Notes under the pieces: generated by a model | Seen by the model: only the letters and a program-made list of their open reading frames with translations | Database searches by the model: none | Told to the model about the DNA's origin: nothing | Source: a virus | Length of the DNA: 23,825 nucleotides | Strand: one strand, 5' to 3' | IMG/VR virus record: IMGVR_UViG_3300008110_001221 | Coordinates: 1-23,825 of that record | Translations under genes and position numbers: made by a program | In this document: piece by piece, positions 15,776-21,032 of the stretch | Layout: every line of letters begins with the position of its first letter | Position numbering within the stretch: position 1 is the first letter of the stretch

Positions 15776-16380
15776 GCGCCGAGCAACTTAGCCTGGTTGA
15801 CAAGGTGCTGGCGTATGTGTCCAGCCCGTTCCGGCTGTTCGCAATGGTTCTCATGGCTGTGCTGACCTTCGCCGGCTATTTTGTATACACGAACCAAGAA
15901 CTTCTGATCGGCGCCTACAAGGAGTCCAAGAAGATACCAAGCATCGCTGAAGATCGCGTAGAAGACGCCGCCGCCCACCTGTTCAAACAGTCCGGCGCGC
16001 TGGTGGTGGCGGTCTTCAAAGTCAACAGCATGTTTGGCACAAGGGTTCTGTACCGCGCCTACGGCAAGAACGGCAGGGACAAAACCAATGACGGGCTGGA
16101 TGTCGGCCTGTTCACCCAAAACGCCGCCAACAACAGCGATGTCGTCAAGCTGATGGCAAACGAGATTCCATGCAGCGAATACAAATCGGCGCAGTCGGAG
16201 ATGGGCCTGTGGTACATCGCCAAGGGCGTGGCCTACACTTGCCGCATCAGCGTGCCGCCGGAGCCTGGGCGCTTTGTCGGCCAGATCACAGTCGGCTGGG
16301 CTACCCAGCCAGAAGACATGGACAGCACCCGCGCCATGTTACAGATTGCAGCAACCATGTTATCAAGGAGTAAACAGTAA
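15772..16380 (+). CDS. N-anchored membrane protein with periplasmic domain, lysis region, unknown
   Basis: A 202-residue protein with a single membrane segment at about 20-39 (FRLFAMVLMAVLTFAGYFVY). The ~160 residues after it would lie in the periplasm. That domain has two cysteines (134 and 157) that could form a disulfide and strands such as ALVVAVFKVNSMFGTRVLYRA and GRFVGQITVGWA, reminiscent of small sensor-like alpha/beta domains; I cannot name one. It is coupled by ATGA to the gene before and by TAATG to the holin. It may be an outer partner of the upstream protein, a lysis regulator or a spanin-like factor. Function is unknown. Confidence 0.7.
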   Translation: MSAEQLSLVDKVLAYVSSPFRLFAMVLMAVLTFAGYFVYTNQELLIGAYKESKKIPSIAEDRVEDAAAHLFKQSGALVVAVFKVNSMFGTRVLYRAYGKNGRDKTNDGLDVGLFTQNAANNSDVVKLMANEIPCSEYKSAQSEMGLWYIAKGVAYTCRISVPPEPGRFVGQITVGWATQPEDMDSTRAMLQIAATMLSRSKQ

Positions 16381-16790
16381 TGTTCCCCCTCACAGCCCTA
16401 TTAGAAGTTGGCGGCAAGCTGATTGACAAACTTATTCCAGACCCGCAAGCCAAGGCCAAAGCGCAAATGGACTTGGCTCAAATGGCGCAAGACGGCGAGT
16501 TAGCCAAGATGGCAAACGACACGGACTTGTACAAGACCGAACAAAACAACTTGACCGAACGCTTGAACGCAGACATGAGCAGTGACTCTTGGCTGTCTAA
16601 GAACATCAGGCCCATGACGCTAGTCGCCATTTTTGTTGGCTACTTTACGTTTGCCATGATGAGCGCCTTCAAGCTAGACGCCAACGAGGTCTACGTTACC
16701 CTGCTGGGCCAGTGGGGCATGTTGGTCATGTCTTTCTACTTTGGTGGCCGCACGCTTGAAAAAATTATGGACATGAAGAGCAAAAAATGA
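16380..16790 (+). CDS. Holin, three-TM (GTA holin-like) family
   Basis: A 136-residue protein. The start (LEVGGKLIDKLIPDPQAKAKAQ), then MAQDGELA, a polar region and WLSKNIRPMTLVAIFVGYFTFAM, is characteristic of the 3TM holin family known from gene transfer agents and many phages. Hydrophobic segments lie at about 78-95 and 105-125. The N-terminal part is amphipathic, so two rather than three strong segments are visible. AAGGAG lies upstream of the ATG, which shares its A with the previous TAA. The endolysin follows with ATGA overlap. It would open the inner membrane to let the endolysin reach the wall. Confidence 0.82.
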   Translation: MFPLTALLEVGGKLIDKLIPDPQAKAKAQMDLAQMAQDGELAKMANDTDLYKTEQNNLTERLNADMSSDSWLSKNIRPMTLVAIFVGYFTFAMMSAFKLDANEVYVTLLGQWGMLVMSFYFGGRTLEKIMDMKSKK

Positions 16791-17197
16791 CACCACACTT
16801 CACCCTTGCGGAACTGACCGCTACAAGCCACCGCCAGTTTGACAACACGCCAAACGAAAAAGAACTAGCCAACTTGCAAAAGCTGGCTGAGTTCTTGGAG
16901 CAAGTCAAGACGCTGCTGGACGGCAAGCCGATTATGATCAATAGCGCCTTCCGATCCAAGCAAGTCAACGACAGCGTAGGCAGCAAGGACACCAGCCAGC
17001 ACCGTCTAGGCTATGCGGCTGACTTCAAGGTGCCGGGCATGACGCCAGACCAAGTTGTGCGGGCCATCATTGACTCTGACTTGCAGTTTGACCAGGTTAT
17101 CCGTGAGTTTGACGCTTGGACGCACATCAGCATCAGCCCCTACCCTCGCCGTCAAGCGCTGATCATTGACAGGGCGGGCACTCGCCCTTTCGCATAA
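16787..17197 (+). CDS. Endolysin, peptidase M15 family (zinc D-Ala-D-Ala type)
   Basis: A 136-residue single-domain protein. It opens with FTLAELTATSHRQFDNTP, the common start of phage and bacterial M15A peptidases, followed by NSAFRSKQVN. The zinc-binding motif is SQHRLGYAADF (His72, Asp79) and the third ligand is His113 in WTHISIS, which matches S-x-H-x-x-G-x-A-x-D and W-x-H. It would cleave peptide cross-links in peptidoglycan. There is no signal peptide, consistent with release through the upstream holin. Its start overlaps the holin stop (ATGA). Its 3' end overlaps a minus-strand gene by 35 bases. Confidence 0.88.
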   Translation: MTPHFTLAELTATSHRQFDNTPNEKELANLQKLAEFLEQVKTLLDGKPIMINSAFRSKQVNDSVGSKDTSQHRLGYAADFKVPGMTPDQVVRAIIDSDLQFDQVIREFDAWTHISISPYPRRQALIIDRAGTRPFA

Positions 17198-17336
17198 GCG
17201 CTCGGTACGCCTCAATCGCGTCCTTGAGGTCGCATTGAAGCTGTTGAATCCTGTCGTCTTGCTCAACCATCTTTGCGTTCGCTTCTTGGGCGAACTGGGC
17301 TAGGTTTTCTTGAGTCCAAGTTTTGAAGTTTGACAT
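17163..17336 (-). CDS. Small coiled-coil protein (57 residues), unknown
   Basis: On the minus strand the product begins MSNFKTWTQENLAQFAQEAN and continues through VEQDDRIQQLQCDLKDAIEA to a CPPC near the end. It is helical with heptad-like spacing and resembles small phage accessory proteins I recall from related genomes. GGAAG precedes the ATG. It overlaps the zinc-ribbon gene upstream by 74 bases. A shorter start at 17270 (MVEQDDR) would reduce this overlap to eight bases, but the longer N-terminus looks protein-like. It runs 35 bases into the end of the convergent endolysin gene. Function is unknown. Confidence 0.65.
   Translation of the reverse strand: MSNFKTWTQENLAQFAQEANAKMVEQDDRIQQLQCDLKDAIEAYRALMRKGECPPCQ
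17171..17188. terminator. Weak hairpin at the convergent gene ends
   Basis: AGGGCG (17171-17176) and CGCCCT (17183-17188) form a 6-bp stem with a six-base loop, inside the overlap of the endolysin and the minus-strand gene. There is no real T tract on either strand, so terminator activity is doubtful. Confidence 0.25.
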
Positions 17337-17490
17337 GTTCTTCCGTTGTGAATTTATGGCCGTTGCCGCACTCTCGGCGGCGTAGTGTAAATGAGCCTTT
17401 GTTTCGCGTGTCGCTGACAGTTGTCCATGTGTTGCAAGTTGGGCATTTCAAGTGTTTTTCTCTCCATGTGTTGCAAGTTGGGCATTTCAA
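17263..17490 (-). CDS. Small zinc-ribbon protein, NrdR N-terminus-like, with duplicated CxxC unit
   Basis: I start this at TTG 17490, eight bases after CAGGAG and overlapping the upstream TGA (TTGA). The 75-residue product reads MKCPTCNTWREKHLKCPTCN, then TLRRRECGNGHKFTTEE. A CxxC pair, RRR-x-C and a later His resemble the zinc ribbon at the start of NrdR and of small phage relatives, so DNA or RNA binding is plausible. A 39-bp tandem duplication has doubled the first CPTC unit, and the inner copy brings its own GGAGAG site and TTG start at 17451. The last ~25 residues overlap another gene and look unstructured. The ATP-cone domain of real NrdR is absent. Confidence 0.65.
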   Translation of the reverse strand: MKCPTCNTWREKHLKCPTCNTWTTVSDTRNKGSFTLRRRECGNGHKFTTEEHVKLQNLDSRKPSPVRPRSERKDG

Positions 17491-17501
17491 GTGTTTTTCT
17501 C
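17424..17501 (-). repeat. Exact 39-bp tandem duplication
   Basis: Positions 17424-17462 and 17463-17501 are identical over 39 bases; matching ends exactly at both boundaries. The unit holds a ribosome-binding site, a TTG start and the MKCPTCNTW codons of the zinc-ribbon gene and is in frame (13 codons). Confidence 0.92.
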
Positions 17502-17993
17502 CTGCTCTGGCTGTGCCAAGGCTTCTTGCCAATTTTGTACTTGCGCATCATCAAGCGACAGGCCGCGCATTTTTGCAAAATCTTTGATTGCATCCACTGC
17601 TGGCGATGCGTCATCAGCAGATGACAACATGATTCGCTTAGGGCGCGATGTAAGCCACGCCATGAAGTCAAACAATGCGCCAGCTATCATGCCGTGTGAC
17701 ACATCTTGCGCCTTATAAAGCTCGTCATATTTTGCGTACAGCTTCGCAACATCTCGCAAGGCCAAGGTGTCGTAGTCTGGGTGGATGCTGTCGCTCTCTT
17801 TCCAGTAGCCAATCGCGGCAGTGCAAATGCCAGCCATCTGCAAGCGGTACTGCTCAATGTCTTGCAGCGCAGGTTCTTTTAAGGCCATGCCGCCAACAAC
17901 ATCAATCAGCCTGTGTATCTCCGCCACAAGCGCCGCAGTTGTTTCAGCGTCTACCGGAACTACAGCTTCGGGGAATAGCCACTCTTCTTTCAT
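17487..17993 (-). CDS. Phage accessory protein, unknown (168 residues)
   Basis: Starting at ATG 17993 (GGGGG seven bases upstream, one base after the preceding stop), the product begins MKEEWLFPEAVVPVDAETTA. It is helical with AGALFDFMAWLTSRPKRI, LSSADDASPAVDAIKDFAKMRGL and a final VQNWQEALAQPEQEKNT. I recall the FDFMAWLTSR / SPAVD pattern from accessory proteins of betaproteobacterial phages but know no function. No membrane segment or enzyme motif is seen. The last residues come from a 21-bp sequence also present in the gene at 18574-18939, and the same bases serve as ribosome-binding site for the next gene. An in-frame extension to 18077 exists but reads through a better-supported small gene. 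Confidence 0.7.
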   Translation of the reverse strand: MKEEWLFPEAVVPVDAETTAALVAEIHRLIDVVGGMALKEPALQDIEQYRLQMAGICTAAIGYWKESDSIHPDYDTLALRDVAKLYAKYDELYKAQDVSHGMIAGALFDFMAWLTSRPKRIMLSSADDASPAVDAIKDFAKMRGLSLDDAQVQNWQEALAQPEQEKNT

Positions 17994-17994
17994 A

Positions 17995-18135
17995 TCAATA
18001 CCCCCATCGAATGCGGAAACACACAAGGTATAGGTGCAGCACGAACTCGTCACCACTGCTAAAAAACCCAATGGCAAAGCAGGGCCACTTGCGCGGCAAG
18101 AACTCAGTTATCAGGTGTAATCTTTTTCTCATCAT
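17995..18135 (-). CDS. Small protein (46 residues), unknown
   Basis: The ATG overlaps the upstream TGA (ATGA), and the stop lies one base before the next ATG. The product starts MMRKRLHLITEFLPRKWPCF and ends HLYLVCFRIRWGY. It is basic and aromatic with alternating hydrophobic residues, as in a small beta sheet rather than a membrane helix. I recall similar tiny proteins (LHLIT-x-x-LPR-x-WPCFA) in related phages. A GGGGGAAG site lies just upstream, close to the first ATG and better spaced for the second. Function is unknown. Confidence 0.65.
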   Translation of the reverse strand: MMRKRLHLITEFLPRKWPCFAIGFFSSGDEFVLHLYLVCFRIRWGY

Positions 18136-18362
18136 TCTTCCCCCGTCAGGTTTCTGATCTCATCTTGCAGGCCAACGATCTGCTCGGCGCGGGTGATGAG
18201 TATCTTATGTAGCGTGTCAATCTCTATGTGCAGAGCGGCAATTTCTGCACCCATACGCTGCATCTCCTCGACCAGCACTGCTTCGGTGTTCCAATCTGGT
18301 TTATATGGCTCATTTGTGCTGTACTTGCGCCCGTTGTTGTCCGTGAGTATTCGCTCAGTCAT
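18132..18362 (-). CDS. Small coiled-coil protein (76 residues), unknown
   Basis: Started at ATG 18362, which overlaps the preceding TGA. The product begins MTERILTDNNGRKYSTNEPY, followed by a long heptad helix (LVEEMQRMGAEIAALHIEID, LHKILITRAEQIVGLQDEIR) to the end. It probably forms a dimeric or oligomeric coiled coil. No catalytic motif or membrane part is seen. GGGGG upstream may act as the ribosome-binding site. Its end overlaps the 46-residue gene by ATGA. Function is unknown. Confidence 0.65.
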   Translation of the reverse strand: MTERILTDNNGRKYSTNEPYKPDWNTEAVLVEEMQRMGAEIAALHIEIDTLHKILITRAEQIVGLQDEIRNLTGEE

Positions 18363-18577
18363 TCCAAGCCCCCTTCCATTGCCCACTGCTCGGCTTTCTT
18401 GGCCATGAACAAGCCCTCGGCGCGGGTCATCTTTGACGACCTGACAATGAGCACGCCCGCTGAGTCATAGCCAAGCACCAGCACATCAGTAAGCTCCTTC
18501 ATTAGGGCCGAGTTCAGCGCCTGCTCGGCTGTGTAGTTGACGCTGGCTGGCAGCGCGATAACAGTCATGTTGTTCAT
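18359..18577 (-). CDS. Small protein (72 residues), unknown
   Basis: AAGGAG lies eight bases before ATG 18577, and that ATG overlaps the upstream TGA. The product MNNMTVIALPASVNYTAEQA continues through LTDVLVLGYDSAGVLIVRSS to KMTRAEGLFMAKKAEQWAME. The centre looks like two beta strands with a turn and the end is a helix. I recall this LGYD / RSS-MTRAE pattern in small proteins of other phages without a known role. It is coupled to both neighbours. Confidence 0.68.
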   Translation of the reverse strand: MNNMTVIALPASVNYTAEQALNSALMKELTDVLVLGYDSAGVLIVRSSKMTRAEGLFMAKKAEQWAMEGGLE

Positions 18578-18939
18578 ATCTTTGTCTCCTTAATGTCGTG
18601 CGCGGCTTCAACAGCTCTCATTAAATCAGCCCAGCTAGTTCCTTTTTTGGATTCCCAATTGGTGTAGATTTCAACGATCTGCTCATCCGTCAGCGGCTTG
18701 CGCTGTGGTGGGGTGGTGTAGAGAGGGTCTTTCCAATCCATTCCTTTTTCGTAAACAAGGTGCTTTCGCTTTACCTCGTCCAAGTCCTGAACACACGCCA
18801 CCGGCTCCTGCTCTGGCTGTGCCAAAGTTTCACGGATAGCGGTGATGGCAGCTTGCTCACGCTCATGCGCGAATCCTGCAATGTTCCCTGTTCGCTCCAG
18901 CGCCTCAAGCGCCAGCTTCAGTGTTTCGTCTTTGGTCAT
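18574..18939 (-). CDS. Phage accessory protein, modular (121 residues)
   Basis: Started at ATG 18939, nine bases after GGAG and overlapping the upstream stop (ATGA). The layout is a helical start (MTKDETLKLALEALERTG), ITAIRETLAQPEQEPVACV, then KHLVYEKGMDWKDPLYTTPPQRKPLTDEQI and a C-terminal helix. The block AQPEQEPVA followed by PLYTTPPQR is one I recall from many phages of proteobacteria, where it joins variable segments like a linker; such proteins have no established function. The LAQPEQE codons are identical over 21 bases with part of the gene at 17487-17993. Confidence 0.7.
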   Translation of the reverse strand: MTKDETLKLALEALERTGNIAGFAHEREQAAITAIRETLAQPEQEPVACVQDLDEVKRKHLVYEKGMDWKDPLYTTPPQRKPLTDEQIVEIYTNWESKKGTSWADLMRAVEAAHDIKETKI

Positions 18940-19226
18940 ATCAGCAGACTCCAAATGTAAAACCCCGTGAAGAAAAACAGGGCTGCTATCACCACCAGTG
19001 CCACCAGCACAAAGCCGACCACAACACTGCCGATCATCTGCCAAGTGTCTGACACGGGTTCAATGTCGTCTGGTATCACTGGATACGGTTTGATCTTCCT
19101 AATTACCGCTGATGGGTCTGGTTCTGGCGCAACGTACAGTAACTTTGCATCCGTGAAGTGGCAAAGGTGGTCACACTGTGGCTTGTGAGGGCAGAGCGCA
19201 AGCCCTGTATCGCATACTGTTTTCAT
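18936..19226 (-). CDS. Cys/His-rich tail-anchored membrane protein, unknown
   Basis: A 96-residue protein starting at ATG 19226, five bases after AGGAG and overlapping the upstream TGA. The N-terminus has seven potential metal ligands within 20 residues (C5, C12, H14, C18, H20, C22, H23). A Pro-rich linker follows, then a long hydrophobic C-terminal segment (about 64-95, IGSVVVGFVLVALVVIAALF). It would sit in the inner membrane with a cytoplasmic metal-binding head. The location in an early accessory operon suggests action on the host envelope or on incoming phages, but this is a guess. No family is recognised. Confidence 0.68.
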   Translation of the reverse strand: MKTVCDTGLALCPHKPQCDHLCHFTDAKLLYVAPEPDPSAVIRKIKPYPVIPDDIEPVSDTWQMIGSVVVGFVLVALVVIAALFFFTGFYIWSLLI

Positions 19227-19435
19227 GCTGGCTCCTTTGGTTCTGGTGGAGAAAGATACGCTTTCAGGCGCTTGACGCGGTTCTTGTTGTAAGTCACCAG
19301 CGAAGTCGCGTACTCGACAGCGCTCTCGGCTTGCAGCAGTTCGTGCTCGGCGTGCATCAGTTCGTGCGCCACGGCCTGCGCTGGCGTGACGGTCTTCATC
19401 ATCAACCGCAACTCTGTCCAGATGTACTTAAACAT
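19223..19435 (-). CDS. Small helical protein (70 residues), unknown
   Basis: I chose ATG 19435 because AGGAGG lies about six bases upstream. The product starts MFKYIWTELRLMMKTVTPAQ and is a long helix with HELMHAEHELLQAESAVEYATS and a basic end (NKNRVKRLKAYL). It contains HELMHAEH, which looks like the zinc peptidase HExxH only superficially (no glutamate at the catalytic place). It overlaps the gene upstream by eight bases and the next by ATGA. Function is unknown. Confidence 0.62.
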   Translation of the reverse strand: MFKYIWTELRLMMKTVTPAQAVAHELMHAEHELLQAESAVEYATSLVTYNKNRVKRLKAYLSPPEPKEPA

Positions 19436-19616
19436 GTTTCGCCTCCTGTAGTAGTTCAATCCGTTCGCGGCTGACCCGCAGCGTGTTGTAGCGTTGGTGC
19501 AGGCGCTCCAAGACCGACACGCGGCGCTGGTTCTTGCGCTCCTCCATCAGCATCTCCAGCACTTGCGCCTCGGTCAGCGTCCGCAGTTCTGCGTTAAGAC
19601 TTCGCCATGTAGTCAT
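19428..19616 (-). CDS. Small charged helical protein (62 residues), unknown
   Basis: AAGGAAAA precedes ATG 19616. The product MTTWRSLNAELRTLTEAQVL continues through MLMEERKNQRRVSVLERLHQ to LRVSRERIELLQEAKHV. It is a highly charged helix with many Arg and Glu, perhaps binding nucleic acid or another protein. It overlaps the upstream 53-residue gene by 23 bases. I recall short phage proteins with TEAQVLxML-EER that have no assigned function. Confidence 0.65.
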   Translation of the reverse strand: MTTWRSLNAELRTLTEAQVLEMLMEERKNQRRVSVLERLHQRYNTLRVSRERIELLQEAKHV

Positions 19617-19755
19617 AAATTTTCCTTTCTAGCTTAATAATTATTTTGTCCAACCTAGCGACAGTGCGCGTTGCCGCGTTTGCCTCCCTTTGCCGTATCT
19701 TCATCTCAGCCAACGCCGCCTTTAGCTGCGCCTTCCATAAATCAATCCGTCTCAT
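19594..19755 (-). CDS. Small helical protein (53 residues), unknown
   Basis: ATG 19755 overlaps the helicase stop (ATGA). The product MRRIDLWKAQLKAALAEMKI continues to RTVARLDKIIIKLERKIYDY, a basic amphipathic coiled coil. In-frame codons further upstream lie inside the helicase gene, so the short form is preferred. Coupling to the helicase suggests it is made with it, but a partnership is not shown. Function is unknown. Confidence 0.6.
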   Translation of the reverse strand: MRRIDLWKAQLKAALAEMKIRQREANAATRTVARLDKIIIKLERKIYDYMAKS

Positions 19756-21032
19756 TTCAAAGCCTCCAATGCAATGTCCGACAATGTGCGCTTGTCGTGT
19801 AGCGCGCCCCAAATCTTCTCGTCAACCGTCTTGTGCGTCAGCATGACGTAGCACCAGACCGCATTCTTCTGGCCGCTGCGGTGCAGCCGGCCGATGGTCT
19901 GCTCGTAGAGTTCCAGCGACCACGGCAGCGACAAGAACACGATGTGGTGCCCGCCGTGCTGTAGGTTCAGGCCGTGCCCTGCTGACTTCGGATGCACCAG
20001 CAGCAACTCGACCTGGCCGGCGTTCCAGCGTTCAATGACGCCGGCATCGTCCAGCGTCTGTGCGCGTGGGAGCCGGCGCTGGAGTTCGGCCAGTTCTTCC
20101 TTGTACTGGTACACAACAATCGTGTTGGCCCGCTGGTTCTCAGCCAGCAAGTCTTCCAGCCGGTCAAACTTGTGGTTGGACAACCAGATGGGACCGTTGT
20201 CGGTGTACAAGAACCCGCTTGCCATCTGTTGCAGCTTCTGCGTCACAACAGCCGCGTTGACGGCCACCACATCGTTCAGCACAAAGTCCTTCTTCATGGT
20301 GTTGTAGTCGGCCATGTCCATGTCGCAGCGCAACTCGACCGTGTGCAGTGGCGGCAGCGTGTCTTTGTAGTCGCCTGGCTCCAGTAGGTAGGTGGCCGGT
20401 TTGATGCGCTCCATGACTTGCGCCAGTGAGCCAGGGCGCGGCGCCCAATCGCCGTAGTCTTTGTTGATCAAGATGAAGTACTGCTGCTGGAACGCGCCTT
20501 TGCTGCGGCCAAGCAACGACTGGTCAACGATCTTGCACTGGCCGAACACGTCCTCCAGCCCGTTGCTGGTGAACGAGCCGGTCAAGCCCCAACGGATGTT
20601 GATCTTGTCAATGACCTTGTTCAGCGCCTTGAACCGTGCGCCCGAGGGGTTCTTCAGCTTGGTCAACTCGTCGTAGACAATGCCGTCAATGTGGGCTAGG
20701 TTCTGTGTCGCCAGCCATTGGATGTTGTCGTAGTTGGTCACGATGATCTGCGCGCCGCTGTACAGCGCCGCCGCTCGTTGGGCCGGTGTGCCCACCGCCA
20801 CGGCCAGCGTCAGACTCGGTGCCCACTTGGGCTGTTCGACCGGCCACACGTCCGTGCAGACGCGCTTGGGCGCCAGCACTAAGAAGCGCTCGACCACGCG
20901 GTCGGCCAGCATGTCTCGCATGGCCGTCAGCGTGATGGCCGTCTTGCCTGCGCCCACGGGCGCCAAAATCATGGCGCGGTCGTGTTCGTACAGGAAGTCA
21001 ACCGCCGTCTCTTGGTAGTCACGCAACTTCAT
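19752..21032 (-). CDS. SNF2/superfamily 2 DNA helicase (phage type)
   Basis: A 426-residue protein from ATG 21032, which overlaps the nuclease gene by 14 bases. Motifs in order: LRDYQ with Gln7 (Q motif), APVGAGKT Walker A (24-31), IIVTNYDNI, YDELTKLKN with Asp121-Glu122 (motif II; the DELTKLKN form is common in phage SNF2 proteins), GLTGSF (motif III, usually LTGTP), KSAGHGLNLQ (motif V, about 349-358) and QTIGRLHRSGQ (motif VI, 378-388). It would use ATP to move on or remodel duplex DNA in replication or recombination. It follows a VRR-NUC nuclease, a pairing common in phages. No extra domain is present; the length is compact for the family. Confidence 0.88.
   Translation of the reverse strand: MKLRDYQETAVDFLYEHDRAMILAPVGAGKTAITLTAMRDMLADRVVERFLVLAPKRVCTDVWPVEQPKWAPSLTLAVAVGTPAQRAAALYSGAQIIVTNYDNIQWLATQNLAHIDGIVYDELTKLKNPSGARFKALNKVIDKINIRWGLTGSFTSNGLEDVFGQCKIVDQSLLGRSKGAFQQQYFILINKDYGDWAPRPGSLAQVMERIKPATYLLEPGDYKDTLPPLHTVELRCDMDMADYNTMKKDFVLNDVVAVNAAVVTQKLQQMASGFLYTDNGPIWLSNHKFDRLEDLLAENQRANTIVVYQYKEELAELQRRLPRAQTLDDAGVIERWNAGQVELLLVHPKSAGHGLNLQHGGHHIVFLSLPWSLELYEQTIGRLHRSGQKNAVWCYVMLTHKTVDEKIWGALHDKRTLSDIALEALK

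Follow-up and report, generated by a model that had tools for sequence, protein, structure and literature searches.

The locus raises the question of whether an exact short repeat at the 5' end of a small phage gene has doubled a zinc-binding unit together with its start site. The stretch of DNA analysed (the window) is a single viral contig of 23,825 bases, which makes up its record with no further contigs. Its plus strand carries phage structural and lysis genes, and its minus strand carries an early-type block; the repeat is located near the end of this block, adjoining a convergent M15 peptidase (endolysin) gene. Tandem Repeats Finder (TRF) detected a tandem pair at 17424-17501 with a period of 39, 2.0 copies, and 100% match, confirming the exact 39-bp tandem duplication described in the first-pass annotation. 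The sequence likewise contains, in the minus-strand frame, the two CPTC motifs and the TTG starts at 17490 and 17451 that the annotation had read there. The features of the region are as follows.

17463..17501, minus strand: copy 1 of the 39-bp unit GAGAAAAACACTTGAAATGCCCAACTTGCAACACATGGA, the 5' copy on the coding strand (TRF and sequence)
17424..17462, minus strand: second copy of the unit, with the same sequence as copy 1 (TRF and sequence)
17263..17490, minus strand: long reading frame with TTG start, 75 aa, two CPTC (PF22811, 33.9 bits, residues 14-51)
17263..17451, minus strand: inner reading frame with TTG start, 62 aa, single-unit NrdR-type zinc ribbon as in all intact relatives
17499..17502, minus strand: outer GGAG ribosome site, 8 nt 5' of the TTG at 17490; G17502 lies outside the repeat
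17462..17465, minus strand: inner GGAG ribosome site (GGA/G), formed at the copy junction, 10 nt 5' of the TTG at 17451
17487..18077, minus strand: upstream gene with no clear family match, the cassette upstream of the joint discussed below
17163..17336, minus strand: downstream small gene, 57 aa, conserved in the related contigs L058, L070, and L073

The insertion amounts to 13 codons and preserves the frame of the ribbon gene, and the copy-to-copy junction reads ACATGGA/GAGAAAAAC (the slash marks the boundary). The unit had been said to contain a GGAG-type site as well as the TTG and the following codons. The latter two do lie within it, but no GGAG is wholly inside, since the outer site uses G17502 and the inner one spans the junction. 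A self-match count found no second exact tandem run of more than 15 matched bases in the window, and 317 kb of relatives' contigs contained no perfect tandem pair with a period of at least 15. An imperfect 21-bp tandem pair in a minus-strand gene (19325-19367) is, unlike the 39-bp repeat, evidently old, because it is common to the related contigs L007, L008, L020, L058, and L064.

The product of the ribbon gene is a small NrdR-type zinc-ribbon protein; it is neither NrdR itself nor a new kind of protein. It scored 33.5-33.9 bits against PF22811 (NrdR zinc ribbon), above the cut-off of 27.2, and all 40 aligned proteins matched this family with E 0.001 or better. NrdR also ranked first in a profile search of solved structures (1.1e-5). 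The model of the 62-residue form is a three-stranded ribbon with a pLDDT of ~90 over the first 40 residues. Foldseek alone returned no significant match for this model (best E 0.11). When the short-form model was compared with solved structures a second time, the top five chains were all NrdR (Z ~5), and 9gex_A superimposed with an rmsd of 0.8 A over 40 residues. A Z of ~5 is no strong fold match alone, yet it agrees with the sequence evidence and lends it modest support. Against the full-length NrdR model TIGR00244, the protein scored 22.5 bits, below the cut-off of 124.65.

The residues C3, C6, C28, and H32, which are predicted to bind zinc, were invariant among 39 distinct single-unit relatives. 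The ribbon core is under purifying selection, with pN/pS ~0.29 across 29 distinct core sequences. In 40 of 44 distinct sequences, the D-x-R segment reads D/E-T-R or D/E-S-R. NrdR is composed of a zinc ribbon followed by an ATP-cone domain (140-220 aa), and its D-x-R segment reads DNA (PMC9110341). Since the ribbon protein carries this segment as NrdR does, it would be expected to bind DNA, and a response to nucleotides is not expected because the ATP-cone is absent. The window, a fragmentary contig, contained no NrdR-box-like site with up to three mismatches to the box pattern used. A search of the literature on NrdR ribbons in phages found no paper on this small ribbon family.

Next to the ribbon gene, the downstream 57-aa gene starts within its tail, so that the two genes share 74 bp (17263-17336), each reading them in its own frame; both frames are conserved in relatives. 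A comparable setting occurs in the lake phage DSL-LC05 (L098:3501-3656, corresponding to OR003940.1 11110-11265), where an unannotated zinc-ribbon-like frame immediately follows a gene whose annotation is putative transcriptional regulator. This frame is convergent with holin and peptidase genes.

The comparison with relatives covered 71 viral loci, and every intact one had one unit; the ~70 viral relatives carried either one unit or none. Three of them are nearly identical to the window on the 5' side of the ribbon gene and are single-copy: L007 is identical over 17463-19990, L064 differs at one position over the same range, and L008 differs at three positions over 17463-19855 (2393 bp). The 24-mer spanning the junction occurred in no other viral contig in an exact search, so the doubled allele is known from a single contig. 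Because these near-identical relatives have one copy and the junction is unique among viral contigs, the doubling appears to be derived and private. It also appears to be recent, as had been proposed, with instability as the alternative, from the perfect identity of the copies and as the comparison with L007, L008, and L064 now corroborates. A genome scan added three distant loci, all in metagenome-assembled genomes. Two superficially similar patterns were rejected. Eight viral contigs matched a general pattern of doubled CPxC units before TGAA-start ribbons, and none of them was related to the ribbon gene or doubled in the same manner. A second start-like string in L071 (KTLEMP) was attributed to chance, as no second ribbon follows it.

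The claim that the repeat doubles a zinc-binding unit proved overstated. The duplicated stretch holds a single CPTC knuckle, while its partner ligands C28 and H32 stay single, so that by its sequence the repeat copies half of a zinc site and not a whole zinc-binding unit. The first CPTC cannot form a second ribbon alone. In the long-form model, residues 1-10 had a pLDDT of 38, so the extra CPTC is modelled as disordered, and the ribbon strands were kept. The confidence of the ribbon core was ~73-82 in this model and ~86-91 in the short-form model, and a mild disturbance of the core in the long form is possible because of this lower confidence. The changed N terminus could also carry a cost, given the purifying selection on the core. 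The inner start was correctly read as giving the usual single-unit protein, which matches exactly the form in 39 distinct relatives.

Both starts have a GGAG ribosome site. The calculated anti-Shine-Dalgarno duplex energy was -7.4 kcal/mol for the outer and -6.4 kcal/mol for the inner site. GGAG 8 nt before TTG is the commonest geometry (31 of the 35 distinct relatives that start with TTG); a spacing of 10 also occurs. All 35 begin with TTGA, in which the start overlaps the upstream stop; in the window, the TGA stop of the upstream gene overlaps the outer TTG in this way. By this comparison, the outer start retains the ancestral ribosome-site geometry together with the TTGA overlap. The 75-aa long form is therefore probably the main product, and the 62-aa short form, initiated at the inner TTG with its own GGAG at a spacing also found elsewhere, is likely to be a second one. 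An overlapping ATG frame (MPNLQHM...) was dismissed, as relatives beginning TTGAAC do not have that ATG.

The duplication lies at a site that has changed more than once. The contig L058 is identical to the window on 17496-20005 and carries an independent 48-bp in-frame deletion at the duplication site (L058:2495-2515). In it, the upstream gene is fused into another frame and reads on for 214 aa. Its ribbon gene, which has lost the start and first knuckle, is destroyed. Change at this site thus seems to be tolerated, at least as judged from this deletion of the ribbon-gene start. For most relatives, the homology to L007 on the upstream side of the ribbon gene breaks off at -12 to -14, where the GGAG box lies, and the upstream genes that adjoin this box are of several unrelated kinds. 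In L070 (2342-2593) and L073 (2330-2593), a helix-turn-helix domain (GGKREGAGRPPK...REIARRFDV...) stands in place of the zinc ribbon, and the C-terminal tail overlapping the next gene (KLQNLDSRKPS...) is retained, an apparent exchange of DNA-binding domains. Because homology breaks at the GGAG box and both the upstream genes and the DNA-binding domain are exchanged, the box looks like a recurrent joint, that is, a cassette border for exchange, duplication, and deletion. The upstream edge of the duplication is at most 2 bp from it, and the joint may have contributed causally to the duplication.

Two further observations concern this neighbourhood. A 27-bp repeat (93%) encodes LAQPEQE in two different minus-strand genes (17499-17525 and 18805-18831), and the GGAG box at the border of the 39-bp duplication forms the end of its copy at 17499-17525. 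On the other side, a patch of ~207 bp (17142-17348) has 24 differences from L007, with none on 15820-17141 or 17349-19990. The patch is thus flanked on both sides by at least 1.3 kb of perfect identity to L007, and it is likely to be a small tract of recombination with one end in the ribbon gene. The L064 contig ends within this patch, at 17344. Together, the patch and this contig end show that strains are mixed close to the repeat, a situation that can upset assembly.

The duplication could for this reason be an artefact, with the contig joined across tangled strain variants in such a way that the 39 bp were entered twice. It occurs in one contig only, it adjoins the strain-divergent patch in which L064 ends, and the L058 indel at the same place could be produced by the same kind of tangle. 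However, the frame was kept, which would happen by chance in 1 of 3 cases, and 39 bp is far below a read length, so that reads of 100-150 bases would normally span both copies. Moreover, relatives' contigs contain no other perfect tandem pair. We regard an artefact as unlikely, though with appreciable weight, and a real duplication as clearly favoured because the frame is preserved and the unit is short. A different objection is that the ribbon frame is no gene in this phage and that its duplication has no consequence at the protein level. The frame starts at TTG, L058 no longer has the ribbon gene intact, and L070 and L073 carry a helix-turn-helix gene in its place. This reading is nevertheless the least probable of all, as the selection on the core, the invariant ligands, and the conserved GGAG-8-TTG with its stop-start overlap are the marks of a gene.

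A more ambitious interpretation is a functional two-isoform gene, in which both starts are used and the long form, with its competing CPTC knuckle, alters how the short form binds zinc, dimerises, or binds DNA. Each start does have a GGAG at a spacing found among relatives, and the frame is open through both units. Yet near-identical strains live with a single unit and none of the lineages retains two. The copies have not diverged from each other, and the added CPTC lacks partner ligands and is disordered in the model. We therefore consider this highly unlikely. Slightly less credible again is that the doubling made, in one step, a working two-isoform regulator, with a decoy-CPTC long form and a normal short ribbon translated from one mRNA and differing in zinc or DNA binding.

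The reading that we consider probable is a recent, private, near-neutral in-frame 39-bp tandem duplication in a phage NrdR-type ribbon gene, with the outer TTG giving the long form and the inner TTG the normal one. Illegitimate recombination or replication slippage at the cassette border (GGAG box) would have duplicated the 39 bp. The outer TTG, with the ancestral ribosome site, would probably yield the 75-aa protein, a normal ribbon with a floppy 13-residue tail bearing a spare CPTC, and the inner TTG with its own GGAG could yield the normal 62-aa form. The net effect would probably be near neutral. The duplication, the open frame, the single-copy state of the relatives, the domain family, and the ribosome-site geometry are direct observations, and the mechanism of origin, the use of both starts, DNA binding, and neutrality are inferred from them. 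Two other causes were rejected: the unit forms no hairpin (-0.9 kcal/mol, z 0.56), and there is no exact microhomology at the duplication edges, as the repeat has exactly 2.0 copies and only an out-of-register GGA lies near both.

If real, the locus offers a clean natural view of an in-frame duplication soon after its birth: a second start has been added, and near-identical strains still carry the parental allele. The allele is a private indel in a domain family already known, and its functional novelty is low; for function, the duplication as such probably matters little. More useful is the general pattern, in which the 5' border of a small zinc-ribbon regulator of phages appears as a recurrent joint where genes are exchanged and where duplication and deletion occur.

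Among known systems, the closest is the NrdR ribbon (PF22811; PDB 9gex, 9fxk, and 7p37), which shares the CPxC knuckle and the D/E-x-R specificity segment, as well as the arginine run before the second ligand pair and the FTTxE strand. The two differ in the second ligand pair, C-x3-H in the window family and CxxC in NrdR, so that the final ligand is C in NrdR and H in the window family. Full NrdR has an ATP-cone, whereas the window protein (62 or 75 aa) does not, and its long form is, unlike NrdR, extended at the N terminus by 13 residues that include a second CPTC. The Ogr/Delta-like phage zinc fingers (PF04606) are likewise small zinc-binding, DNA-binding phage proteins; the window protein scored 12.4-14.2 bits against this family, below the cut-off of 26.3, and 5 of 40 relatives reached E 0.001. 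As a perfect head-to-tail copy absent in close relatives, the duplication resembles other spontaneous short tandem duplications and differs from them only in its location, which includes a start site and a zinc knuckle.
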